Assembly (NCBI GenBank): GCA_002778785.1
Contig: PEZS01000002.1
Coordinates: 103,126-167,125 of the forward strand
Origin: Bdellovibrionales bacterium CG10_big_fil_rev_8_21_14_0_10_45_34
GTDB taxonomy: Bacteria > Bdellovibrionota > Bdellovibrionia > Bdellovibrionales > 1-14-0-10-45-34
Direction of reading: 5' to 3'
DNA: 64,000 bases
The notes beneath the pieces are model-generated. The model was not told where the DNA came from, did not search any database, and was given only the letters and a program-made list of their open reading frames with translations. The first letter of the stretch is position 1. Each line of letters opens with the position of its first letter. Position numbers and translations under genes: made by a program. Shown one piece after another: positions 15,547 through 61,718 of this stretch.

Positions 15547-15738
15547 ATGAAAAATAAGAGTAAAGATCCGCGCAAAGAAATCATCTGCCTCTGTAATGGT
15601 GTAACTCGAAAAACCATTCAAGATGCTATTGATAGAGGCGCTAAAACCCCCAACTCGGTATTTGACGCCACAACAGCTGGCGTCGGCCCCTGTGGCGGAA
15701 GCTGCCGAAAAAAAATCATTGAAATGCTCAAGAAATAA
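15547..15738 (+). CDS. BFD-like [2Fe-2S]-binding protein
   Basis: Small 63-residue protein of the bacterioferritin-associated ferredoxin-like family. Four cysteines are arranged as CLC near residue 15 and CGGSC near residue 50, the usual pattern for a helical [2Fe-2S] domain, with a lysine-rich C-terminus. Such proteins shuttle electrons for iron release or act as small redox modules. The gene lies 13 bases after nrnA and is probably co-transcribed. Its last codons run directly into a long palindrome: the last two bases of the TAA stop are the first two bases of the left arm. Confidence 0.85.
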   Translation: MKNKSKDPRKEIICLCNGVTRKTIQDAIDRGAKTPNSVFDATTAGVGPCGGSCRKKIIEMLKK

Positions 15739-15793
15739 GGTGCCAGGTCCTATTTGCGGACGCACCGCATCCGCAAATAGGACCTGGCACCTT
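15737..15793. repeat. Long perfect palindrome (24-bp arms, 9-base loop)
   Basis: Arms 15737-15760 and 15770-15793 are exact reverse complements, starting AAGGTGCCAGGTCC on the left and ending GGACCTGGCACCTT on the right, around the loop CGCACCGCA. A second element of the same design, with AAGGTAC ends, occurs at 35337-35397. The form resembles REP-type palindromes mobilised by RAYT transposases in other bacteria (established for that class); no such transposase is in this window. As RNA it would fold into a very stable hairpin and could also end transcription after the ferredoxin gene. Confidence 0.85.
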
Positions 15794-35322: not shown

Positions 35323-35336
35323 CATTTGGTAAATCA

Positions 35337-35397
35337 CTAAAGGTACGGAGTCACTTGTGGGACGCGGCGCGTCCCACAAGTGACTCCGTACCTTTAG
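35337..35397. repeat. Long perfect palindrome (29-bp arms, 3-base loop)
   Basis: Arms 35337-35365 and 35369-35397 are exact reverse complements, with the left end CTAAAGGTACGGAGTC and the right end GACTCCGTACCTTTAG, around the loop GGC. It lies between two convergent genes, next to a separate terminator, and is followed by a further short copy of the end motif (TACCTTTAGGACC). It shares its AAGGTNC end with the palindrome at 15737-15793, so both probably belong to one dispersed repeat family. Confidence 0.85.
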
Positions 35398-35419
35398 TAC
35401 CTTTAGGACCTTTATCAAA

Positions 35420-49742: not shown

Positions 49743-51425
49743 TTATTTTACTCCCTTTCCCTGGGGTTGGCTCTGACTACTACTCTCACCACTGTTGTTT
49801 CGCCCATTTCGTCGTCGCTCCTCAATGACATCTCTCTCAGTGGCCATCGTAAAGGCGTCTAAACAAACCATTTTCGTGATACCTCTTGTTCCATTCAAAT
49901 ACTCCGAGATCGCCTTCTGATAATCAGTTGCTGTCGCCCAAGGACCGAGGCCCTCAATAAACTTTCGTGATCCTCCGGAACCATTGCAAGCCAAACATCC
50001 CAACTGATGTTTTACCTTTCGAAGAGTTTCTGCCGAAAGCTGATCAGAACCAATTCGTTTATTTGCCGTGTTTCTAGAGCCAGTTGATAGACTGAGGCCA
50101 GGATAGCAGCAAGAACTTGCCGAGTGACGAAGAGCCCCTAGGTGGAGCAAACCATTTTCTTTTATTAGCGCTATCTCTTTTTCAAGCTCTACGGAAGAAT
50201 CTCTGTCGATGGCGTCTTTGTACTGCTTACTGTCGTAAAAGTCTCGTCGAGTTTTCCGAAAACCGCTAAATGCCGTTCCGCAATTGAAGAAACGACTGTA
50301 TTCTATCGCACCAAGTTTCACTTTTTGCCTTCTATCAGCAACATCCGTAGAACTCCAGAACTTCTGACTTTGAGACGGCTCACCGTCAGTAGATGGGGTT
50401 ACACCTAAGAAGGGACCAAATCCCTTTTGAACTTCGTAACCCTCAAAGCCACTTCCTCCATGCGATTTGAAAGTTTCATATTTTATTGGGCCTAAATAGG
50501 TCATTCCAAAATAGTTACCTCGCTGACCACCTCTTTTGCCATAAGTTGACTCTTTGGCGGCTTGGGCAAAACGCAAACCCAAAGGAATTGAATCCGTCGA
50601 GTAATCCAGCAATAATTCGTAAGCTTTAAGAGCATCTAGGCCTTCAGTGAGATCCCCAAGAGATCTGCTTTGATCCGAACTCGCTGAACCAGCTGATGTT
50701 TTAGTTATTTCAACTTTGTCTTTTCGCTCAGTGCCCGAAAGGAGGCCTGACTCCTGCGAAGTTCCAGAAGTGCATCTTTGTCGTTTTTGGCTTTTTTCTG
50801 AAGGAGACTTCCAGTTTTCGTATTCGCCAAGAACAAGACACTTATAATATTTCTTTGTGGCATCTCTTTTTTCTTGTGTGATATTTACTTGCGGCAAAGC
50901 TGAGTTGTAGAGATCCTCAAGCAAAGCGTCACTCAAATAGTTAGAACCTGTCTCGTCTGCCCTCTTGCCACAATTTGCCATGTAGATTGCGATATATTTT
51001 TCAAGAAGCTTTTTTGCCTGAAGAGTGTAGTCCTCAATCTCATTATCAGTGGATTCACTATTTATTTTAGCCGCCTGAGATCGCAGGTTCATCGCTTCAA
51101 CCCTAAGCTCTAGAAACTCTAGTCGAAGCGATGTTAAAGTGCCTGTAATCTCTCGGTCGGCAAAAGCAGAATCACACAGTGCCTGATTAATGTGGGCCAA
51201 ATCAGTCCCTGATTTTTCGCGAGGTTTTAAACCAATTTGATCTCTTATTGTGTTAATTCGCGCATCATCACAGTTGAGAAACTTCTCAGACTCCGCGCGT
51301 TCACCCAGAGGACTCGCCGCTGGCCTTTGGCAGAGCCTGGCTGTATCGGCCTCGGTCAAGAGACAATACAATACTAATGTAGCTGCTAAAAAAATATTAC
51401 GAGGCCAAAAACAAGAACGCGACAT
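49743..51425 (-). CDS. Secreted protein with lysozyme-like domain (putative)
   Basis: A signal peptide (residues about 1-27) is followed by a helical, cysteine-containing region and, at about residues 270-400, a domain with FAQAAKESTYGKRGG and NYFGMTYLG. These resemble the FlgJ/glucosaminidase-type pattern (QAALESGWG ... NLFGI) in which Glu is catalytic, so a peptidoglycan hydrolase is possible; I cannot confirm it. Several cysteine pairs, some close together (CC at SASSCCYPG and CLAC), suggest disulfides in the periplasm. It lies 60 bp downstream of the next gene on the same strand, so they could be co-transcribed. Confidence 0.6.
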   Translation of the reverse strand: MSRSCFWPRNIFLAATLVLYCLLTEADTARLCQRPAASPLGERAESEKFLNCDDARINTIRDQIGLKPREKSGTDLAHINQALCDSAFADREITGTLTSLRLEFLELRVEAMNLRSQAAKINSESTDNEIEDYTLQAKKLLEKYIAIYMANCGKRADETGSNYLSDALLEDLYNSALPQVNITQEKRDATKKYYKCLVLGEYENWKSPSEKSQKRQRCTSGTSQESGLLSGTERKDKVEITKTSAGSASSDQSRSLGDLTEGLDALKAYELLLDYSTDSIPLGLRFAQAAKESTYGKRGGQRGNYFGMTYLGPIKYETFKSHGGSGFEGYEVQKGFGPFLGVTPSTDGEPSQSQKFWSSTDVADRRQKVKLGAIEYSRFFNCGTAFSGFRKTRRDFYDSKQYKDAIDRDSSVELEKEIALIKENGLLHLGALRHSASSCCYPGLSLSTGSRNTANKRIGSDQLSAETLRKVKHQLGCLACNGSGGSRKFIEGLGPWATATDYQKAISEYLNGTRGITKMVCLDAFTMATERDVIEERRRNGRNNSGESSSQSQPQGKGVK

Positions 51426-51485
51426 ATAAGATCATTGTAGATATCATTCCAGATAAGGCGACCAATTTTGCAGATCTTTTTGCGA

Positions 51486-52754
51486 TCAGTTCCTTTTTAG
51501 CAACACGACGATGGGCCAGTGATCTGAAACCCCGAGATATTTGCCGCTAACCACGCTTTGACTGTAAGGAAAGCCTTGTGCGTCCCGCTGGAAGTCCTGA
51601 TCATTCACTACTCTCGTGACTGAGTCCTGAACTTGCCACTTCGAATGCTGACTCTGCACGAGCACCTTGTCTAAAAACGACCAAGACTTCTTGGGAGGAT
51701 AATACGTAGTGCCACGGCATTTTTCTAATTTCTTCGCAGCAGCTGCGGCTGTCGCTTTTGACGTCGCCATCGCCGAAATGTCTAATCCATTTGCTCTATA
51801 GGATTCCTTACACTCGGATTCCGCAGCATTGTTCCACACTGAGATTTTGTGCTCTTCATCACTAGGAACATTAAAATCTCCCGCGGCAATTACTAGTCTC
51901 CCCTTCGCACGCTCCACTGCTGCAAGTTCACCTAAAAACTTAAAAGCTTGAATGCGAGAAACCTTTGGATGAAAGGGCGCTGGAAAATGAACCCCAAAAA
52001 CTGTTACTAGCTCGTCTCCACCTAACTCAAAAGTCGCCTTAAGAATACCTCGAGAGTCGCCCACAACCTTTTTTGCTTTGCCGCGAAAAGGAATCTCCCG
52101 CAGTTGTGGTACCTCCACTAGATTCAACCTAGACAACATCGCGACGTCTATGCCCCTCTTATCATGGCCTTCAATGAGAATTGGCTCCGAGTAACCGCAC
52201 TCACCCAAGTGTTTGTCATTGAATCTACGAAGAACCTCGATGTTCTCCACCTCTTGCAAAACCAACACATCTGGGCACCTTGGAGTCGAATTTGGATTTG
52301 GATTTGGATTTGGAATCTGATTTGGATTTGGATGCTGATTCTGATTTGGACTCTGACTCTGACTCTGACTCTGATTGTGATCGGAAGTATTCACAGAAAC
52401 TATCACTGCGGCAAGCCTTCGCATTTTCTCTTCTAAGACTTCTTCGCTCCAATCAAGATAGAGACACTCGTCACGCCATGACTTTTTTGAGATTTTGCGG
52501 CAGAAGTTTTTATGCGCAACCGACTGCTTTTTTGCTAGAGGCAAAAACGTCTGGTCATTCTTTGCAGGATCATCTTGAGTGTCAAAAAAATTCTCTACGT
52601 TGTAGGTCATAAGTGAAAAGCTTTTACGAACATCTTTTGACGAGAAGCCGTGCTCCACACCTTGATCTTTTGGACTGTCCTTTGGCGATACGCATCCGGC
52701 AGTTAAAATGGCTAGCCCCGCTAATATGACTATAGCGCGAAAAAACAATTTCAT
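51486..52754 (-). CDS. Endonuclease/exonuclease/phosphatase-family lipoprotein
   Basis: DNase I/EEP-fold protein with a lipoprotein signal (lipobox LTAGC near residue 21). Catalytic blocks are SLMTYNVENFFDT (metal Glu), VLQEVENIE, VTVFGVHFPAPFH, AAGDFNVPSD and the final SDHWPIVV (general base His). A low-complexity Gln/Pro/Asn/Ser stretch inserted after residue 125 is coded by hexanucleotide repeats. A secreted nuclease or phosphodiesterase is likely. Confidence 0.85.
   Translation of the reverse strand: MKLFFRAIVILAGLAILTAGCVSPKDSPKDQGVEHGFSSKDVRKSFSLMTYNVENFFDTQDDPAKNDQTFLPLAKKQSVAHKNFCRKISKKSWRDECLYLDWSEEVLEEKMRRLAAVIVSVNTSDHNQSQSQSQSPNQNQHPNPNQIPNPNPNPNSTPRCPDVLVLQEVENIEVLRRFNDKHLGECGYSEPILIEGHDKRGIDVAMLSRLNLVEVPQLREIPFRGKAKKVVGDSRGILKATFELGGDELVTVFGVHFPAPFHPKVSRIQAFKFLGELAAVERAKGRLVIAAGDFNVPSDEEHKISVWNNAAESECKESYRANGLDISAMATSKATAAAAAKKLEKCRGTTYYPPKKSWSFLDKVLVQSQHSKWQVQDSVTRVVNDQDFQRDAQGFPYSQSVVSGKYLGVSDHWPIVVLLKRN
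52288..52378. repeat. Hexanucleotide microsatellite inside a coding region
   Basis: Runs of TTTGGA and of GACTCT or CTCTGA hexamers fill this stretch. On the coding strand they give alternating SQ, NP and NQ codons in the EEP-family lipoprotein. Length changes by six bases would stay in frame and vary the linker length. Confidence 0.75.
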
Positions 52755-52892
52755 CTTGACGATTTCCCTTCAAGGCAAATGATTCAATCCCCCCCCTACC
52801 AGATCGCCATGATGTGGTCAGTCTGGGACCGCGATTGCAATAGCCAATTTTTATTAAGACAATTACAATAAGAATTCAACAAGGAGATTTTC

Positions 52893-54950
52893 ATGTTCAA
52901 CCTAAAGGTTCAAGGCCAGCGCGTTTCTCATCTTCCTTTTGAAGAACTAAAAACGCAGGGATATCTTGAATGTATCGAATCCGCCATTCGGATCGCCAAG
53001 GAGAAGCTAGACAAAATTAAGTCTCTTCCTGCTGGCTTTGATAATACGATCTTAGGTCTTGACGAATGCTCAGATGACCTGCGCATTGCTTCGAATCTCT
53101 ATCATGCTATTTTTGCGGCACACGGGAATGAACGCATTCGAGCGTTGGCCGCGCCAATTAGTCAAAAGATTACAGAGTTTTCAAATGACTTACTTTTAGA
53201 CGAAGCATTGTTCGGCAAAGTCGAAGCCGTCTACCAGAACAAGACTCAGCTTTCGCTGGGCACAGAGCACACGACTTTGTTAGAAAAAACTTATCGCGAC
53301 TTTGTACGTAATGGAGCGCAGTTAAACATCGAACAGAAATCGCAATTGCGAAAGATTGATGACGAGCTTTCTAAGTGTGCGCCAGAGTTTTCAAATCGAG
53401 TATTGAAGGCAACTAATAGTTTTGAACTTCATATCACTCTTGAGAAGGATCTCGAGGGAATCCCCCAAGATGCCATAGCAGAAGCGAAGGCCAAAGCGGC
53501 AGACCGTGGTGGTTGGATATTTACACTACAGGCACCGAGCCTAACGCCTTTTTTGACTTACTGTAAAAATCGAGAACTCAGAAAACAAATGTGGCTTCAG
53601 TACAACTCGAGATGCTTGGTTGGCGAAGAGACGACCGTCGAGCTTGTTAAAGAGATAGTGAAATTGCGGCACCAAAGAGCGCACCTACTCGGCTTTAAAT
53701 CTCACGCTGAATATGTATTAGAAGAGCGCATGGCGAAGTCTGCACACCAAGTGAATAACTTTTTACAAGAGCTCAAGCAAGCTTACCTACCTGCAGCCAA
53801 ACGCGAAATGGATGAACTCAACACCTTTGCTAAAAACGAATTAGGTTTTAAGGATGATGTTGCGCCCTGGGACGTGAGCTTTTTGATCGAGAAGAAGAAA
53901 GAGAAAGACTTTCACTTTAGCGAAGAAGAACTTCGTCCCTACTTTGAACTTAGACAAACGCAAAAAGGGTTGATGGACCTTACAGAAAAGCTCTTTAAGG
54001 TGCGGTTTCAAAAAACAAGTTTTGCTCTTTATCACGATCTCATCGAAAGCTACGAAGTGCTCGAAGCAAGCGGAGAGCACTTAGGTTTTATTCACTTGGA
54101 TCTTTTTGCCCGCGATACAAAGCAAGGTGGTGCTTGGATGACGGCTTGGGTTGATCAAGGCAAATTCGACCAAAAAATCGTGCGACCTCATATTGCCATT
54201 GTGTGCAACTTCCGCCAGCCTTCTGAGGAACATAAGACTCTTCTTAATTTTATAGAAGCGCGCACACTCTTTCATGAGTTCGGCCATGCTCTTCACGGGT
54301 TGTTTTCAAAGTGTACCACCAACAGTTTGAGCGGCACCAACGTCTATTGGGATTTTGTGGAGCTGCCATCACAGTTTATGGAAAACTGGTTACTAGAACA
54401 AGACGTTGTGAACAAGTTTGCGACCCATTACAAAACCGGAGAAACCTTGCCACCGCAGTTGTTAAAGAAACTGCGCGATTCACAGCACTTCATGGCTGGC
54501 TACTATGGCGTCAGGCAGCTGAGCTTTGGAACTCTCGATATGGCCTGGCACTCTAAATCTTTAAACGAGCTTGAAGGTAGTGTTTTAGGTTCTCAAGATT
54601 TTCAACCTTTTGAAAAAGAATCTCTACAAGACTTACTTCTTATGCCGCAGGTGCCTGGCACGTCCATGTCTGCAGCCTTCTCGCACATTTTTGCTGGAGG
54701 TTACTCAGCCGGCTATTACTCTTACAAGTGGGCCGAAGTGATGGATGCAGATGCCTTTGAAGCTTTCAAAGAAAAGGGTCTGTTTGATCCAGCGGTGGCT
54801 CAGTCGTTTAAATCAGAGATTCTCGAGCGCGGCGGCAGCGAGCATCCAGAAACTTTGTACAAACGATTTCGCGGAAGACTCCCCACCCCCGACGCGCTTT
54901 TGCGCCGGGATGGAATCGCAAGTTTTGAAGAACAAAAATCTGAGAGCTAA
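52893..54950 (+). CDS. M3-family oligopeptidase
   Basis: Thimet-oligopeptidase/PrlC-like cytoplasmic zinc endopeptidase of 685 residues that cleaves short peptides. The zinc motif is HEFGH in LFHEFGHALHGLF (H at residue 461), followed by a Glu in VELPSQFMENW. No signal peptide is present, in contrast to the M3 lipoprotein at 35-37 kb. A clear AAGGAG precedes the ATG. The last 84 bp of the gene are repeated 2.9 kb downstream, suggesting its 3' end has been used as an insertion site; the C-terminus now ends ASFEEQKSES. Confidence 0.92.
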   Translation: MFNLKVQGQRVSHLPFEELKTQGYLECIESAIRIAKEKLDKIKSLPAGFDNTILGLDECSDDLRIASNLYHAIFAAHGNERIRALAAPISQKITEFSNDLLLDEALFGKVEAVYQNKTQLSLGTEHTTLLEKTYRDFVRNGAQLNIEQKSQLRKIDDELSKCAPEFSNRVLKATNSFELHITLEKDLEGIPQDAIAEAKAKAADRGGWIFTLQAPSLTPFLTYCKNRELRKQMWLQYNSRCLVGEETTVELVKEIVKLRHQRAHLLGFKSHAEYVLEERMAKSAHQVNNFLQELKQAYLPAAKREMDELNTFAKNELGFKDDVAPWDVSFLIEKKKEKDFHFSEEELRPYFELRQTQKGLMDLTEKLFKVRFQKTSFALYHDLIESYEVLEASGEHLGFIHLDLFARDTKQGGAWMTAWVDQGKFDQKIVRPHIAIVCNFRQPSEEHKTLLNFIEARTLFHEFGHALHGLFSKCTTNSLSGTNVYWDFVELPSQFMENWLLEQDVVNKFATHYKTGETLPPQLLKKLRDSQHFMAGYYGVRQLSFGTLDMAWHSKSLNELEGSVLGSQDFQPFEKESLQDLLLMPQVPGTSMSAAFSHIFAGGYSAGYYSYKWAEVMDADAFEAFKEKGLFDPAVAQSFKSEILERGGSEHPETLYKRFRGRLPTPDALLRRDGIASFEEQKSES
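54833..54916 (+). repeat. 84-bp gene-end repeat, copy 1
   Basis: The 3' end of the oligopeptidase gene. Matches 57717-57800 at 80 of 84 positions; the first 63 bases are identical. A 21-bp part (54901-54921) is also found at 57032-57052. See copy 2 for the comparison. Confidence 0.9.
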
Positions 54951-55012
54951 ATACGATCTTCAAAAAGAGCGCCGCGATGAGATCCAACCAAGCACATTGT
55001 GATCAACGAATG

Positions 55013-56050
55013 TTATTCATTCGTAGGTTCTGGTAATCTCTCAAAGTAATAGCAGAATTTGCTATCTTGCTCACCAGGAGGGAGTACTTCAAAACTTTTG
55101 GTCACAGTTCGGAACTCAGTAACACCTGTTAGCAAATAATCGCCGAATTGACGAACTCCGATTAGCGTTGGGTAATAATGAAGCGAGAATGGAACGATAA
55201 GCGCTTCAAGTTTAGGATCAAACCTAGCATGGTTCCTGTGATAATGATGAACTCCTACGTCACGATCAATCGTCATAAGTCTTACGTTGATATATTGCCA
55301 TGTGTTCGTATGACAACTAGATTGCCAATTGTCCGGATCACAATACTGGGTTGCTTCTAATTGCCACCCCTGATAAACCTCTGGATCCGAAAAAAGCGGC
55401 CCTGCATCTGGGGCTTTAGAGGGCTTTCTCAAGCGAAAATAATAGCGGTCAGGCAACAAATTCCCCCTTGCCCAACAGCGTCCCTCCCAGGACCCAGCAA
55501 TCTCTGCGGGGTTGGGTCGAGTCGAAAGATTCTTATTAAGGAACAATTCGTAAAGATGCTCCTGGGGTCGTTGGGCTTGAGCCGCCTCTTGCAACGCTTG
55601 CTTCGATTGTTGAGCTAGTAGATCTCTTCCCAACTGATCTAAAAACTGATGGTCCGGTATACCAACAAGATGTCCCGTCTCGTGGACTGCAAGTACAAAA
55701 GCTTCATCTGGCGTCACTCCATGGGTTTCAAAAAAGGGAACGCTGAGCACTATATGATCTGGTTTCTCAAGCGGTAGCGCTAAAGCCGCCTTTTCTTGAC
55801 CCTCGTCGAACAGACGTTCCCGCTCCGATCGCTTAATGGGCTTACTTCTAACAGCTTCAATCTTTCCCAACCAGTTGCCCCTAAGGACTTCGTCATTAAT
55901 CGATTTACTGGATCGAATAGCAACGTGAGCGCGATCAAGAGCAAAGTGAAACCGGGTCTCGTATATGTCGGCTCCACCGCCTTCCTTTCCTGCCATGGCA
56001 CAAAGGGGGGTTAGCCAAAGAAGGCTTACACTTAGAAGTTTTGTCTTCAT
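55013..56050 (-). CDS. Secreted metzincin-like protein, partner of TIGR02147 regulator
   Basis: A signal peptide ends near residue 20 (CAMA). The zinc-binding motif is HETGHLVGIPD at residues 123-133, that is HExxHxxGxxD, a metzincin pattern; the third ligand could be D133 or H134. The remaining chain is of mixed composition with several cysteines and no known domain. It may be a secreted protease. Its start overlaps the stop of the TIGR02147 gene by four bases, so the two are translationally coupled, and it lies inside the inserted-looking segment. Confidence 0.7.
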   Translation of the reverse strand: MKTKLLSVSLLWLTPLCAMAGKEGGGADIYETRFHFALDRAHVAIRSSKSINDEVLRGNWLGKIEAVRSKPIKRSERERLFDEGQEKAALALPLEKPDHIVLSVPFFETHGVTPDEAFVLAVHETGHLVGIPDHQFLDQLGRDLLAQQSKQALQEAAQAQRPQEHLYELFLNKNLSTRPNPAEIAGSWEGRCWARGNLLPDRYYFRLRKPSKAPDAGPLFSDPEVYQGWQLEATQYCDPDNWQSSCHTNTWQYINVRLMTIDRDVGVHHYHRNHARFDPKLEALIVPFSLHYYPTLIGVRQFGDYLLTGVTEFRTVTKSFEVLPPGEQDSKFCYYFERLPEPTNE

Positions 56051-56838
56051 TTCATTCTCCTCATTTTTATTTCCTTATTAGAGTTCGCTGTTACTGGATA
56101 AAGCGAAACCCCCAGATGATAGACTCGAGTGGGTTTCTTGTTTCTTTCAAAAAAATTGCACAAGTCTCGTCGAAAGTTCTTAATTATTTCTCGCGCCTCA
56201 TCTAGGTCTTCAGGATTAACTGCCATGGTCATTGAGGTATGACTCCTCAGATCGACGGGAACCTCTTCAAGTGCTCGAATAGACATTTCAAGAACCTGTC
56301 GCTGCAGGTTTCTAGCGGCTTTGCTTGTTAAATTTCCGTTGATATTTGTCGCTCGCGCATTCTTTGAAGTGTCTACCCATGATCCATCTGGCTTGATCTT
56401 TAGCAGACCAACTCGCTGGAGCCGCTCAACTGCAATTCGCACTTCAGTTTGGGATATCCCAAGGGTTTTTGCTAGGTACTTACAGTCGGGCTTGAAGTCG
56501 ACGGCCCGGATGAGTTCAAGGATTGCATAGTGATACCAATCGGATATGATCGCATACGTATCAAGAGTGATTTGCTGATAACCATCGTTTTTTCTTCTTT
56601 GATGAGATGCTCGTTCATTAAGCTCCTCAAGCTTCATACCCAAGGCAAGTCCCAATCGTTCACGCATTTTTTTTGTGATGGGCCGCTTTCCTCTGAGCAT
56701 GGCAGATAAAGGTGACGCCTCTACTCCTAGGGATCGTGCAAACGCTCTCAGGGAGTAGCTAGAGTTCTTTCGACATCGCTCTACAAACTCTTTCTGAAGC
56801 AGCATGCGAAATTCAGATTTATCTTTCGACATTTCCAT
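56047..56838 (-). CDS. TIGR02147-family regulator 1
   Basis: Member of the TIGR02147/DUF4423 family, known from Fibrobacter and Bdellovibrio, with unknown biological role. The N-terminal 60 residues form an XRE-like helix-turn-helix (YSLRAFARSLGVEASPL, SAMLRGKRPITKKM), and the C-terminal part has a second winged-helix-like segment (YLAKTLGISQTEV, RIAVERLQRVGLLKI). I use the ATG at 56838, 41 bases downstream of a 21-bp dyad and seven bases after a TATTCT; the frame continues to 56862. The product gene is coupled to the secreted metzincin-like gene, suggesting dedicated control. Confidence 0.82.
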   Translation of the reverse strand: MEMSKDKSEFRMLLQKEFVERCRKNSSYSLRAFARSLGVEASPLSAMLRGKRPITKKMRERLGLALGMKLEELNERASHQRRKNDGYQQITLDTYAIISDWYHYAILELIRAVDFKPDCKYLAKTLGISQTEVRIAVERLQRVGLLKIKPDGSWVDTSKNARATNINGNLTSKAARNLQRQVLEMSIRALEEVPVDLRSHTSMTMAVNPEDLDEAREIIKNFRRDLCNFFERNKKPTRVYHLGVSLYPVTANSNKEIKMRRMK

Positions 56839-56879
56839 GGTGCAGAGAATACACAATCTCATTGCGCCCCGCGACTCAT

Positions 56880-56900
56880 TTTGTCACAAAGTGTGACAAA
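56880..56900. promoter_or_regulatory. Operator-like dyad of TIGR02147 gene 1
   Basis: TTTGTCAC, spacer AAAGT, GTGACAAA. It lies 41 bases upstream of ATG 56838. A further half-site (TTGTCAC, 56905-56911) continues at the 12-bp spacing. The layout matches the dyad of gene 2 at 60113. Confidence 0.7.
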
Positions 56901-57031
56901 CCAATTGTCACAGGTAATTTCTTCATTTGAAAAACACCGGAAGAACTTAAAAAACTCGCGCAGAGCTAGTGAGTATCCAAAAAGCTAGGATTAACGTTAT
57001 AGCCTAAGCCATCCAACACTAGGCTCACTAG

Positions 57032-57052
57032 TGCGCCGGGATGGAATCGCAA
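57032..57052. repeat. 21-bp fragment of the oligopeptidase gene end
   Basis: Exact copy of 54901-54921 (TGCGCCGGGATGGAATCGC, then AA), lying between the TIGR02147 gene and the BrnT promoter. Together with copies 1 and 2 it divides the accessory segment into two modules. Confidence 0.8.
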
Positions 57053-57142
57053 ATCGATAATCTCTTCATCTTGAAGTGAAGTCTTGAAGAAGTTCGTTTG
57101 ACCTGTAGCCTCCCTACGGTCTCTGCCGCGTAATTCATTGTA

Positions 57143-57171
57143 TTGACATTGGAGCTACGCTGTTGTACCAT
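57143..57171 (+). promoter_or_regulatory. Promoter of brnTA
   Basis: TTGACA (57143-57148), 17-bp spacer, TACCAT (57166-57171). The predicted start of transcription falls at the ATG of brnT (57177), so the message is probably leaderless. Confidence 0.7.
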
Positions 57172-57176
57172 TGCTT

Positions 57177-57461
57177 ATGATCTTCGATTGGGACGACCTT
57201 AAAGCCGAATCCAACAAGAGTAAGCACGGAGTGAGTTTTTCAGAGGCCGCAACTAGTTTTTCTGATCCAAACGCCATCGAGTTTCTCGACGGAAAGAACT
57301 CTGACAAAGAGGACCGATGGATATTGGTGGGACTCTCATCAAAGCTCCAGCTTCTTCTGATCGTTTTTGTAGAGCGAGAAGAAAAGGTCATTCGTATTGT
57401 CTCGGCGCGAAAGGCAGTTAAAGACGAGATTAACCAATATTTTTCAAGGATAAAAAAGTGA
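57177..57461 (+). CDS. brnT: BrnT family toxin
   Basis: Toxin of the BrnT/BrnA type II toxin-antitoxin system, a RelE-fold ribonuclease that cuts RNA and stops translation. Family features: FDWDDLKAESNKSKHGVSF, the acidic/Asn region before it, a basic RIVSARKAVKDE near the C-terminus, and about 94 residues. The start at ATG 57177 lies six bases after the -10 box; a TTG at 57171 is possible. It overlaps brnA by four bases (GTGA). Toxin first, antitoxin second is the normal order for this family. Confidence 0.9.
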   Translation: MIFDWDDLKAESNKSKHGVSFSEAATSFSDPNAIEFLDGKNSDKEDRWILVGLSSKLQLLLIVFVEREEKVIRIVSARKAVKDEINQYFSRIKK

Positions 57462-57703
57462 AAGTTAAATACGATCTTTCAAAAGCGAAAAGTGCAAAGA
57501 AGCGTCGAGGCTTAAAAGTTCAGAAAAGCTTTCGGCTCGATCCTGAGGTCTTGCTGTGGCTCGAAGAACAGGGTGAAAAACAAGGCATGGGATACCAGAC
57601 TTTTCTTAACTGGTATCTAAACCGACAAATAGCTGAGGAGAAGACAACCAGCGAGCGGCTTGCTGCCCTCGAGGCTGAGATCTTTAAGAAGAAAAGAGCT
57701 TGA
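57458..57703 (+). CDS. brnA: BrnA family antitoxin
   Basis: Antitoxin of 81 residues that binds BrnT and represses the promoter through a ribbon-helix-helix-like domain: the basic N-terminus and RGLKVQKSFRLDPEVLLWLEEQG, then FLNWYLNRQIAEE. It starts with GTG overlapping the toxin stop. The end of the gene is followed after 13 bases by the repeat of the oligopeptidase gene end. Confidence 0.88.
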   Translation: MKVKYDLSKAKSAKKRRGLKVQKSFRLDPEVLLWLEEQGEKQGMGYQTFLNWYLNRQIAEEKTTSERLAALEAEIFKKKRA

Positions 57704-57716
57704 AACGAAGGCATAA

Positions 57717-57800
57717 CGGCAGCGAGCATCCAGAAACTTTGTACAAACGATTTCGCGGAAGACTCCCCACCCCCGACGCACTACTTCGCCGGGATGGAAT
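57717..57800 (+). repeat. 84-bp gene-end repeat, copy 2 (displaced 3' end)
   Basis: Matches the 3' end of the oligopeptidase gene at 80 of 84 positions. The first 63 bases are identical to copy 1; the four differences (GCG/GCA, CTT/CTA, TTG/CTT) are all synonymous, and the reading frame continues in this copy as RRDGIKVLPGTN to a different stop at 57822-57824. It thus looks like the displaced original end of such a gene, not a random piece. Confidence 0.85.
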
Positions 57801-57955
57801 AAAGGTTTTGCCCGGGACAAACTAACTAGGTTCGTACCAACCATTGAAACTGCACCAACATCCGACTCCGAGTCAGACCAAGAAGCACACACAGTATAGA
57901 CGCGCGAACAGGCTTCAAAAACACAACTCGCGCGCATCTAAACATGGGCAAGTAA

Positions 57956-59161
57956 TTACTTAAATCGGCTTGCGTAGTCTTCAAAAACTTTTTGAATCTT
58001 TTCTAACTTCTCTAGGCATTCTTCTTTAGTGCCGCTCAAAGAAATCCGCTGTTCGGGTACAAGTTTCTCTGTCGCAAGAGTACAGTATCCCGAAGACCAA
58101 GCAACCCCTCCGAACTTTAGGTATTGTACGCTCGCGGCGAAAGGATCTTTAAGTTCAAGCCATTCAGGCTTGTTTCTCTGAGCATTAATTTTATACACAA
58201 AAGAAGATGATTTACCGCACTCGCGTCGAACATATTCCAGCTCTTTGGTTAAATCGGCGCCGTCATACAATTTGATTTCTCGCGCAGTCACAAAGAGATT
58301 CGGATGCTGGACGTAGGAATATGCTGTAGCCCCAGTAAGAAAAGATGAACCTTCTCTTCTGTAGACTCCATCTTTAAAAGCACATAACTCAGAGAAAATT
58401 CCAACCTGCACTCTTGGACTAATAGACTGTTGAAGTTGCTTTAAACCTTCTCTAAATCGTGTGGAAAAAGTAAGAGCAGTTGCAGAACGAGCATGCTTTC
58501 CTTCCTGTATCCAAACCGTCCTCACATCGTTTGTGGTCTCATCTTTATACTTATATTCGGCGTGATACGTCAGAGAATAGTAAACTTCATGAAAGATAAG
58601 AGCTGCTTGATTATTGCCGTCCATAAGGTCTATTCCGGCAGCATTCACCGTTATCGACCGGTCCTGCCTGGTCGCAAGCTGGTAGAGTTTTCCGCCACCT
58701 CTTCTATAGGCCTCCCAGTCCACAATCGTATCGTGTAACTCAATCTGAGCCAAAGGCAGCGGCGACCGATACCACTGATGCATTTCGATAGTCAAGAGTA
58801 GCCCCTCGTAGCTCATTGGATCGAGTAGTTCAATTTCATAAAGCTTGACTGCAATTTTCTCTAACGCCTCGGGCTTGAGACCTAGATCGCCCAAAGCGAA
58901 CTTTAGTCTCTCGACGTCAGCGCCCCTGGCCGTTAGGTTGGCAAAATACGGATTCAAATGAAGTCCCTTTTCATAGAGGTCTACCAGGTAAAGCTTGGAT
59001 CTGTCGCCGGGCGGAAAAATCCCTACGCCTCCATGAGTGCCGGTTCCCCAGCGAGGCGCAGACATTTTCTGGGCCTGTACAGCCTGCCCAGTTAATAGCT
59101 CGAACACAATCGCTGTGACACTTGCTAATACTAGATTTTTTAAATTTGATCTAAGTTTCAT
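57956..59161 (-). CDS. Secreted protein, partner of TIGR02147 regulator 2
   Basis: A signal peptide (about 30 residues, ending VQA) precedes a 370-residue chain not recognised as a known family. A degenerate zinc-type motif is present in LIFHEVYYSLTYH: HE followed by five residues and no HxxH partner, so catalysis is doubtful. Three cysteines are near the C-terminus. It lies 28 bp after the second TIGR02147 gene and is probably its target, in the same arrangement as the first module. Confidence 0.6.
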   Translation of the reverse strand: MKLRSNLKNLVLASVTAIVFELLTGQAVQAQKMSAPRWGTGTHGGVGIFPPGDRSKLYLVDLYEKGLHLNPYFANLTARGADVERLKFALGDLGLKPEALEKIAVKLYEIELLDPMSYEGLLLTIEMHQWYRSPLPLAQIELHDTIVDWEAYRRGGGKLYQLATRQDRSITVNAAGIDLMDGNNQAALIFHEVYYSLTYHAEYKYKDETTNDVRTVWIQEGKHARSATALTFSTRFREGLKQLQQSISPRVQVGIFSELCAFKDGVYRREGSSFLTGATAYSYVQHPNLFVTAREIKLYDGADLTKELEYVRRECGKSSSFVYKINAQRNKPEWLELKDPFAASVQYLKFGGVAWSSGYCTLATEKLVPEQRISLSGTKEECLEKLEKIQKVFEDYASRFK

Positions 59162-59189
59162 GTCTCGTTACTCCAATTTCTTTTGGTTA

Positions 59190-60071
59190 TTAATCTTGTA
59201 TTGTTTCAAGAGGGAACAAACTCAACGACAACTGATAAACCTGCCTGGATCTGCCGCCCTCCAAAAAGGTGCACAGCTCTTCGCTAAACTTTTGAATCAT
59301 TTGCTTCGCCTTCGGGATCAACCTTGGGTCAATGTTCATTGTCATTCCAATCTGAGATCTGCACTCGATCGGCACTTCATCTAGAGCATCAATTGCCTTT
59401 GTCAGCATTTGTTTTTGATGAATTCGGTGAGCTGAAGTCGTTGTGGCCTTATCGTCAGTCGTCATATCTTTTCGCTTCTTTTTGTATCCCGCTTTTACTG
59501 GTTCGATATAACCAAGCTCAACAAGTCTTTGCATAGCAGCTGTCGACTGAGCTTCAGAGATCTTCAGGCGTTTGGAAATGTATTTCGCAGTTGGCTCGAA
59601 CCTGGGGTTTTGACACATTTCCATAAGAGCTATGTGATACCAATCTGCGATAACCTGAAATTCTTCTAGCGAAATAGTTGTTTGCACATTTTCTTGAGTC
59701 TTTTTTGCGTGAGAGCGAGAACCACTTAGGAGGGCCGAACCACCGGGCCCAACTGAAATTCCATCACGACTCTCGGCTTTGCTTCCAGCGGTGAACGACT
59801 TTGGCTTCGAATTCCTTTTAGAATTCTGAACATCGTGCAAAGAAAGCCAAAACCTTTGGGCGTTAACGGGATCCAGTTCCAAGGCCATCATAAGTTTTTT
59901 TGAAGTACGGTCTGATGGGACTCTTTTACCAGAGATAATTTGTGAAAGAGCTCCGTCGTTGACACCTATACTGCGGGCAAAAGCGCGAATAGAATACCTG
60001 GGGTTCTGTTCGCATCGTCTTTCAAGCTCACGTCTGAGAGCCAGTCTGTAAAATGGGGCTGGAGTAGTCAT
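59190..60071 (-). CDS. TIGR02147-family regulator 2
   Basis: Second TIGR02147/DUF4423 paralogue, 293 residues. The N-terminal helix-turn-helix is YSIRAFARSIGVNDGAL, SQIISGKRVPSDRT, near-identical in the scaffold to paralogue 1 but different at the recognition part (NDGALSQII against EASPLSAML). The C-terminal half has the helix-turn-helix-like YISKRLKISEAQSTAAM and RLVELGYIEP. A Gly/Ser/Lys-rich linker (SKPKSFTAGSK) joins them. A 21-bp dyad sits 41 bases upstream of the ATG. The partner is the secreted protein 28 bp downstream. Confidence 0.82.
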   Translation of the reverse strand: MTTPAPFYRLALRRELERRCEQNPRYSIRAFARSIGVNDGALSQIISGKRVPSDRTSKKLMMALELDPVNAQRFWLSLHDVQNSKRNSKPKSFTAGSKAESRDGISVGPGGSALLSGSRSHAKKTQENVQTTISLEEFQVIADWYHIALMEMCQNPRFEPTAKYISKRLKISEAQSTAAMQRLVELGYIEPVKAGYKKKRKDMTTDDKATTTSAHRIHQKQMLTKAIDALDEVPIECRSQIGMTMNIDPRLIPKAKQMIQKFSEELCTFLEGGRSRQVYQLSLSLFPLETIQD

Positions 60072-60112
60072 GCGGACTGTTGTACACGGGCTGGCGAAAC
60101 CCTCAAATCATT

Positions 60113-60133
60113 TTTGAAGCAAAGTGCTTCAAA
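60113..60133. promoter_or_regulatory. Operator-like dyad of TIGR02147 gene 2
   Basis: TTTGAAGC, spacer AAAGT, GCTTCAAA. It is 41 bases upstream of ATG 60071, with a minus-strand TACAAC (4 of 6 with the -10 consensus) seven bases before the ATG and TTGAGG 16 bases before that. Confidence 0.7.
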
Positions 60134-60240
60134 CTGCAGAATCCCGCCGAAGCAGGTAGGAATTACATTAAGTTTAGGCCAGCCTTTCATAATTATGATC
60201 GCCTCTCTTTAGAAGGCAGCTAAACGGCAACCTTTCGGAG

Positions 60241-60546
60241 TGAGTAGAATGGAAAAGCTTCGCTGCTAGATTCGCACGAGTGATTGATATTTTTCTGACA
60301 AAATACATAAAGCTTAAGGTACTTATAAATGATCCTGGATTCGATGGAACGTTGCGAGACTACTTAAACCACGCCGAAAAAATGCGAATTCTCAATGAGC
60401 CCGAGAAATGGATGGCGCTCAGAGAACTACGAAACATTCAGGCACATGATTATACCGAAGACGATTTGGAACGCTTTCTTACTTCACTAGAACTTGAGTC
60501 CGAATTTGTAATCCATGCGATTGGGAATGTTGAAATTGAGAATTAG
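60241..60546 (+). pseudogene. Truncated HepT/HI0074-like gene
   Basis: A GTG-started frame at 60280 makes an 88-residue protein resembling the C-terminal part of the nucleotidyltransferase-partner/HepT family (helical, about 135-140 residues in full). The RNase motif R-x4-H-x-Y is present in RNIQAHDY. The frame extends upstream to a TGA at 60241 with family-like FAARFARVIDIF, but no start codon and no space for the missing 50-60 residues, so the N-terminal half is lost; the usual MNT partner gene is also absent. Confidence 0.6.
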
Positions 60547-60764
60547 TGAAAGTGAAGTGAACAACATTTTAAAGGGGCTTCGGGAGGCCACCTTTCTCGG
60601 GGAAGGTCACTAAGACCTCATGTCAGTGGAAAAAGCTACTCCGAACAGTGGATATGCTATGACGTGGGCTTCGGCCACATATGTTCTTTAGCCCCAGGCC
60701 TTCCCATTCCCCCTTGTCTGTGGCTAAAATGCCAGGAATAAAGTGAATTTAAAGTGAGGCGCAA
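60547..60764. other. Intergenic region before the sugar operon
   Basis: About 218 bp. I see several GC-rich short inverted repeats (for example around GGGGCTTCGGG), no ORF and no clear promoter. The epimerase gene begins at 60765. Confidence 0.4.
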
Positions 60765-61718
60765 ATGAAAGTTTTAGTGACGGGAGGGGCTGGGTTTATC
60801 GGAAGCCACCTTTGTGAAAAATTACTTAACGAAGGTCACAAAGTAACCGCATATGACAACTTACTCTTAGGAAGAAGAGAGTTTTTGTCTCAGTGCGAAC
60901 GCTCGGAGAATTTTCAATTCCTTCAAGAAGACTTGCTCAATTTAGACATCCTTGTCTCAGTAATGAAGGGGCACGACCTGGTTTTTCACATGGCTGCCAA
61001 TTCGGACATCTCTCAAGGAGCCAAACAAACCGATGTCGATCTTAAGAACGGCACGTTTGCGACCTATAATGTTTTAGAAGCGATGAGATTAAATCAAGTC
61101 AAAAACCTTGTCTTCGCATCGAGCTCTGCGATTTACGGCGAGGCTGATGTGATGCCAACCCCCGAAAATTACGGGCCACTGATGCCAATTTCTTTGTATG
61201 GCGCGAGTAAATTGGCATGTGAAGCCCTGTGCACCGCGTTTGCTCACAATTTTAACATAAATATTTGGATGTACAGATTTGCCAATATTGTCGGATCTCA
61301 CTCCACGCATGGAGTTATTTACGACTTTGTTGATAAACTTAAGAAAGACTCAAAGAGTCTCCATGTTCTTGGTGATGGAAGCCAAAGAAAATCTTATTTG
61401 CACGTTTCTGACTGCGTTGACGGAATGCTTTACGGTTACAAAAACCTCAAAAACGAGTGCGAAGTTCTAAACCTTGCTAGTCGGGGCGTTACGAACGTGA
61501 AGTTCATCGCCGAAGAGGTGGTTCGGCAAATGGCGGCACGAAGCGGCAACAAAGCAGAACTACATTACGGCGAAGGCCAAAGAGGGTGGCGAGGCGATGT
61601 GCCTTACACCCATTTAGAAGGTGCGAAGTTTGAAAAACTAGGTTGGTCAGCAAAAATGACAAGCGACGAAGCCGTAGTTTTAGCTGTTCAAGAAATTATT
61701 TCAGAAAAGATGGGCTAA
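60765..61718 (+). CDS. NAD-dependent epimerase/dehydratase
   Basis: Extended-SDR nucleotide-sugar enzyme of 317 residues. The cofactor motif is TGGAGFIGSHLCE, the catalytic serine region SSSAIYGE and YGASKLACE give the YxxxK pair. This is the set expected for UDP-glucose/GlcNAc 4-epimerase-like or dehydratase enzymes; the product cannot be assigned. It starts the plus-strand sugar cluster, which is heptose-related, so a GDP-heptose-modifying role is possible. Confidence 0.88.
   Translation: MKVLVTGGAGFIGSHLCEKLLNEGHKVTAYDNLLLGRREFLSQCERSENFQFLQEDLLNLDILVSVMKGHDLVFHMAANSDISQGAKQTDVDLKNGTFATYNVLEAMRLNQVKNLVFASSSAIYGEADVMPTPENYGPLMPISLYGASKLACEALCTAFAHNFNINIWMYRFANIVGSHSTHGVIYDFVDKLKKDSKSLHVLGDGSQRKSYLHVSDCVDGMLYGYKNLKNECEVLNLASRGVTNVKFIAEEVVRQMAARSGNKAELHYGEGQRGWRGDVPYTHLEGAKFEKLGWSAKMTSDEAVVLAVQEIISEKMG

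Follow-up and report, generated by a model that had tools for sequence, protein, structure and literature searches.

The window analysed here is a stretch of 64,000 nt (contig 2, positions 103126-167125, of a 3.06-Mb genome), and all coordinates refer to it unless another locus is named. Its features around an M3 peptidase gene, a brnTA toxin-antitoxin (TA) pair and two modules, each of a regulator and a predicted exported protein, are as follows.

52893-54950, forward strand: M3 peptidase gene, the anchor (PF01432, 8.8e-127)
54833-54921, forward strand: E1, the peptidase gene end in situ, source of both scraps
54923-54967, forward strand: relic of a second brnTA (brnT end and brnA start), 80% identical to 57441-57485 over 45 nt
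55013-56050, reverse strand: module A, predicted exported protein of 345 aa (no Pfam or NCBIfam match)
56047-56862, reverse strand: module A, TIGR02147/DUF4423 regulator
57032-57052, forward strand: E2, 21-bp scrap of the peptidase end, identical to 54901-54921
57143-57171, forward strand: brnTA promoter, TTGACA-17-TACCAT
57177-57461, forward strand: brnT, predicted ribonuclease toxin gene (PF04365, 1.8e-25, over 1-77 of 77)
57458-57703, forward strand: brnA, predicted antitoxin gene (PF14384, 2.4e-4, 21.9 bits, below the 26.1-bit cut-off)
57717-57800, forward strand: E3, 84-bp scrap of the peptidase end, 95% identical to 54833-54916
57956-59161, reverse strand: module B, predicted exported protein of 401 aa
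59190-60071, reverse strand: module B, TIGR02147/DUF4423 regulator

Both genes of the brnTA pair are intact and overlap by 4 nt, confirming the complete pair described in the initial annotation. BrnT matched PDB 7vd7 (3.2e-12) and has the size of its toxin family (~90 aa). Position and overlap of brnA fit a BrnA-type antitoxin; its PF14384 match lies below the cut-off, and the nearest brnTA relative found (genome G098, BrnT 75% identical) has a matching partner gene. NCBIfam returned no match for BrnT or BrnA. Like known BrnTA type II systems (PDB 7vd7 and 3u97), the pair has the toxin gene first and the antitoxin gene second, overlapping; it shows nothing unusual. The near-consensus promoter that had been noted is present and, as a pattern, occurs no more often than by chance (1 found, 1.1 expected), yet G098 keeps TTGACA-17-TACAAT at the equivalent place. 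The −10 hexamer and the brnT ATG are 5 nt apart (57143-57177), as they also are in the G098 relative (L332), which suggests that the brnTA transcript may be leaderless or near-leaderless. The DNA conserved with the G098 copy comprises 57140-57705 only, from the promoter to the brnA stop, with no shared cassette ends; the G098 pair has no framing repeats. Transposase-like ORFs, identified by eye, lie near it. BrnT was represented by one weak record in phages and by 650 records in plasmids, all below 60% identity. The pair itself is ordinary and was most likely the cargo of an insertion.

The repeats framing the pair, a 21-bp copy at 57032 and an 84-bp copy at 57717, were correctly recognized as gene-end repeats; both come from the peptidase gene, whose 3′ end they repeat. 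In the whole window, the only direct repeats of at least 38 bits were E2, E3 and a 45-bp match (54923-54967/57441-57485). A 100-nt query found no further convincing copy of the peptidase end in the 3.06-Mb genome (next match 16 nt, E 0.27), and the stretch 50000-61000 held no additional convincing scraps. E1 and E3 agree completely over 63 nt, after which mismatches occur only at 54896, 54899, 54900 and 54902; these four mismatches in 84 nt all fall within 7 nt (p 0.0007 for the clustering, by simulation), and all are synonymous. TG before the core and CGCAA after it are common to E1 and E2 and absent from E3, and the sequence after the core is unlike in all three copies. The scraps start at sites that map to peptidase positions 54833 (E3) and 54901 (E2), 68 nt apart.

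Directly after E1 lies a feature that the initial annotation had overlooked, namely the 45-nt match to the brnT end and brnA start of the window's own pair. Because this segment is 80% identical to the intact counterpart and its score of 45 was reached in none of 300 shuffles of both regions (maximum 30), we conclude that a second brnTA decayed there. Among 219 sequences, made up of the window and of 109 other brnT entries compared on both strands (some of them duplicates, and almost all from further genomes of the order), the best match of the relic was the window's own brnTA (41.9 bits, versus 27.4 bits for the next). The short peptide translated from it had no Pfam match. The relic encodes the C-terminal tail of the peptidase, SFEEQKSES; most relatives stop at RRDGL(I/L) or a few residues later. 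E1 thus looks like a peptidase-end-plus-brnTA unit that would have lost ~390 bp between the peptidase end and the brnT end and then decayed. Since E1 carries a relic of the window's own brnTA, two versions of a peptidase-brnTA arrangement appear to have met at this locus.

The exported protein of module A, used as a tracer, gave only two weak matches in 139 other genomes. The genome contains 14 TIGR02147 genes (16 matches, with two genes split), only two of which flank the brnTA pair, and the earlier suggestion that the pair stabilizes the adjoining TIGR02147 module is unsupported. A phrase search of limited scope returned no paper on TIGR02147. Beyond module B, an 88-aa ORF (60280-60546) resembles the C-terminal half of HI0074/HepT-type proteins (TIGR01987, 4.8e-4) and is perhaps a remnant of another TA pair. 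Elsewhere in the window, two long, near-perfect inverted self-matches (35336-35398, 63 nt, and 15737-15793, 57 nt) are probably strong hairpins or terminators. A search with PF00589 (Phage_integrase) yielded no match on contig 2 and none among the scanned genes of 52893-60546, the four matches of the genome being on contigs 1 and 10; in the sense of this search the pair has no recombinase beside it, as had been stated. A ComEC-family match is present in the genome; since an E. coli control also scored, natural competence of the host is only possible.

We searched for comparable arrangements at 117 peptidase loci from other genomes (37 genomes of the order, and 80 retained from 558 confirmed candidates in GTDB; none from the same family), with 180 to 12,000 bp of downstream DNA per locus. 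No locus (0/117) had a comparable downstream end repeat, weak matches reaching 36.5 bits with the top two inverted; at least 4 of 37 ends (L159, L163, L169 and L172) had been called off the natural stop, so that their tails are not true gene ends. The peptidase end as an insertion hotspot was rejected on this count.

Repeats were more frequent around brnT itself. Direct repeats of at least 50 bits spanned the pair within 1.5 kb at 9 of 104 unique other brnT loci, including loci cut by contig ends, versus 3 of 479 control intervals, which were tiled every 1.5 kb with shared flanks (Fisher p 2e-5). The controls comprised 239 intervals from one conserved neighbourhood (none with repeats) and 240 from 20 stretches at round coordinates (three with repeats). 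With a stricter filter (at least 85% identity and at least 40 nt), the counts were 7/104 and 0/479 (p 5e-6). Of the 30 ParE loci returned by the search, with coordinates set at 1501 or the contig start, 3 were framed, no different from brnT (p 0.73).

Clear 3′-end or terminator cases among the nine were L128 (= L255), L264 and L142/L149 (one syntenic pair). At L128, in genome G012, brnTA has an intact tRNA-Leu on one side and 73-74 bp from the 3′ part of that tRNA on the other, an arrangement that resembles an ordinary integrase-type tRNA site; at L264 the pair lies between tRNA-like 3′ ends, and at L142/L149 between two terminator copies. At L191 the repeat is a gene duplication, those at L221 and L235 have the look of dispersed repeats, and L124 (= L274) and L224 belong to no assigned class; the repeats of L264 and L235 are below 85% identity. 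The terminator case, which is comparable to that of the window, was followed at ten loci (L363-L372) of the 24 genomes found. In G027 and G013, brnTA sits between two convergent genes together with two terminators, whereas in G030 and G042, which have the most similar neighbouring genes among the loci that lack brnTA, a single terminator and no brnTA lie between the same two genes (loci of this comparison: L142, L149, L364 and L366). This shows insertion of brnTA with doubling of a gene-end terminator, precise loss in G030 and G042 being less likely. A phrase search of limited scope for TA insertion at terminators returned no paper.

Within the same genome, we sampled 353 kb including the window, in stretches chosen because they surround TA or TIGR02147 genes and in one more set by a round coordinate; gene names at the two loci below were read by eye from ORF lists. 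At L353 (G000:C6:232001-252000), a pair of TIGR02147 and exported-protein genes downstream of a histidine kinase lies, with no TA pair, between the copies of an 89-bp repeat (6804-6892/8912-9000, 99%) from the end region of this kinase, and the displaced copy has a further 61-bp block (80%) of the histidine kinase 3′ part. Two full copies of the 89-bp stretch exist in the genome, and three more copies, partial and less alike, cover its final 35 bp; part of the repeat is therefore dispersed. We count L353 as a second locus with the same plan as the window. Since its TIGR02147 module is framed by gene-end repeats without a TA pair, such scraps are not a TA property. At the same locus, an exact 38-bp repeat (9179-9216/11526-11563) of part of a 399-aa ATPase-like gene follows the stop codon of a predicted exported protease at a distance of 8 nt. 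At L325 (G000:C1:212001-232000), part of an HNH-like gene is duplicated over 311 bp, with a third copy of 48 bp, which may reflect ordinary gene duplication; a 49-bp repeat there (10871-10919/11571-11619, 88%) with a palindrome frames a ParE-type TA pair.

With moderate confidence, we interpret the peptidase locus as a stack of neighbourhoods that are alternatives to one another downstream of the peptidase gene, built by homology-facilitated illegitimate recombination or a close kin of it (single crossover of an end-joined fragment). This reading starts from features that were observed or computed: the repeats, the relic, the clustered synonymous differences and the absence of a Phage_integrase match on the contig. 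According to parts of PMC3240628, homology-facilitated illegitimate recombination has one homologous and one illegitimate border, the latter usually with 3-10 bp of microhomology. At our locus, the peptidase end common to E1, E2 and E3 places one border in homologous sequence, as such insertion requires, and the other border occurs at varying positions (54833 and 54901), as random non-homologous joints would give; because the two positions differ, they fit non-homologous joints rather than a fixed attachment site. Likewise, the four differences between E1 and E3, being clustered and synonymous, fit a homologous allele met at the exchange. Synonymous changes can, however, also occur where a phage-type attachment site lies within a gene end (e14/icd), which counts against the stacking reading.

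The stack would consist of a decayed brnTA plus TIGR02147 module A, then brnTA, then the second TIGR02147 module B. In the history that we infer, including its order of events, its donors, a RecA pathway and a route of DNA entry, the oldest state was probably the peptidase gene followed by module B, with the gene end that is now E3. Peptidase-brnTA DNA of a relative would have entered first, by homologous exchange inside the peptidase gene, its far end meeting the old peptidase end in a non-homologous joint 84 bp short of the divergence point, which left E3. The peptidase would thereby have acquired the donor tail now visible in E1 and E2, the old tail staying behind as E3. The 21-bp E2 would stem from a second entry, whose donor had a decayed brnTA and, behind it, module A. 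Foreign DNA would thus have been added at least twice, with brnTA as cargo, and every addition would have had its anchor in the peptidase end and, at the opposite border, a non-homologous joint. No relative with just one of these neighbourhoods was found in the genomes searched, which include none of the same family. If the stacking history is correct, the locus preserves, in unusually legible form, a fossil of one-sided recombination events that followed each other at one gene end, and the decayed second brnTA is its key witness. Homology-facilitated illegitimate insertion with stacking is known; what is new is its setting at a peptidase gene, with a TA pair and with TIGR02147 modules.

Integrases insert at the ends of tRNA genes and some protein genes, and a recombinase acting in trans or since lost could have used an attachment site in the peptidase end to insert one or two small elements. 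Each such insertion would add one core copy and restore the gene end, in keeping with the 21 bp common to E1 and E2, and the tRNA-Leu locus of G012 has just this integrase-type look. However, the scraps start 68 nt apart, the contig lacks a PF00589 match, the site recurred at 0/117 other loci (none of the same family), and the brnTA relic after E1 is left unexplained. We regard site-specific integration as rather unlikely. Hardly better placed is local duplication, in which an older peptidase-end and brnTA unit was copied in place, one copy decayed and module A was inserted later by an unrelated event. In its favour, the relic behind E1 finds its best match in the brnTA of the same locus, but the mosaic of E1 and E3, identical over 63 nt and then with four clustered synonymous differences, together with the unlike ends after the core in all three copies, calls for divergent donors rather than copying in place, and we rank this account as unlikely as well, next after integration. 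That brnTA is a minimal mobile addiction cassette which targets gene ends and stabilizes the adjoining module, moving as a unit as first proposed, is very improbable: direct repeats do frame brnT loci more often than control intervals (9/104 versus 3/479) and G027 and G013 do carry an insertion with a doubled terminator, but ParE loci are framed at the same rate (3/30), conservation with the repeat-free G098 copy (57140-57705) stops at the promoter and the brnA stop without common ends, the targets (protein gene, tRNA, terminator) and the borders differ among brnTA loci, and the TIGR02147 pair at L353 is framed alike without a TA pair.

More broadly, recombinase-free stacking at gene ends might be a regular route by which TA pairs and pairs of TIGR02147 regulator and exported protein accumulate in the order, each arrival leaving a readable scrap of its anchor, so that such loci would be ordered records of DNA uptake, like an integron array without the integrase; we offer this as a speculative generalization that is fairly unlikely to hold. 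If the stacking reading of the window is right, gene-end scraps would serve as bookmarks of DNA uptake, showing the last-arrived neighbour and the donor allele that accompanied it, and TA pairs and regulator modules could spread without a mobility gene of their own. As a caution, a TA pair between direct repeats is not necessarily mobile itself.

One known resemblance is to e14 and phage 21 at the icd end, where the gene end is replaced by a near-copy with synonymous changes and the displaced end is left behind. Both e14 and phage 21 encode an integrase and cross over at a constant site; in the window, neither an integrase (PF00589, contig 2) nor a constant crossover site was seen. Small variable segments, as treated in parts of PMC2884548, are similar in that short variable DNA lies between direct repeats, which flank 10-18% of segments in E. 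coli, S. aureus and S. pyogenes; the repeats reported there are mostly <30 bp, in contrast to the 84 bp of gene end found here together with a second scrap and a relic. For the immunity-gene arrays of the Vibrio cholerae T6SS, a process akin to homology-facilitated illegitimate recombination has been proposed, with no fixed integration site in the account given in parts of PMC5361080. As described there, successive homology-anchored additions push back the older neighbours and displace a 3′ gene end as a scrap, as in our reading of the window. The anchor in Vibrio is the effector cluster, and the old immunity genes are kept (parts of PMC5361080); in the window, by contrast, a peptidase gene serves as anchor, and the cargo comprises a TA pair and modules of a regulator and an exported protein.
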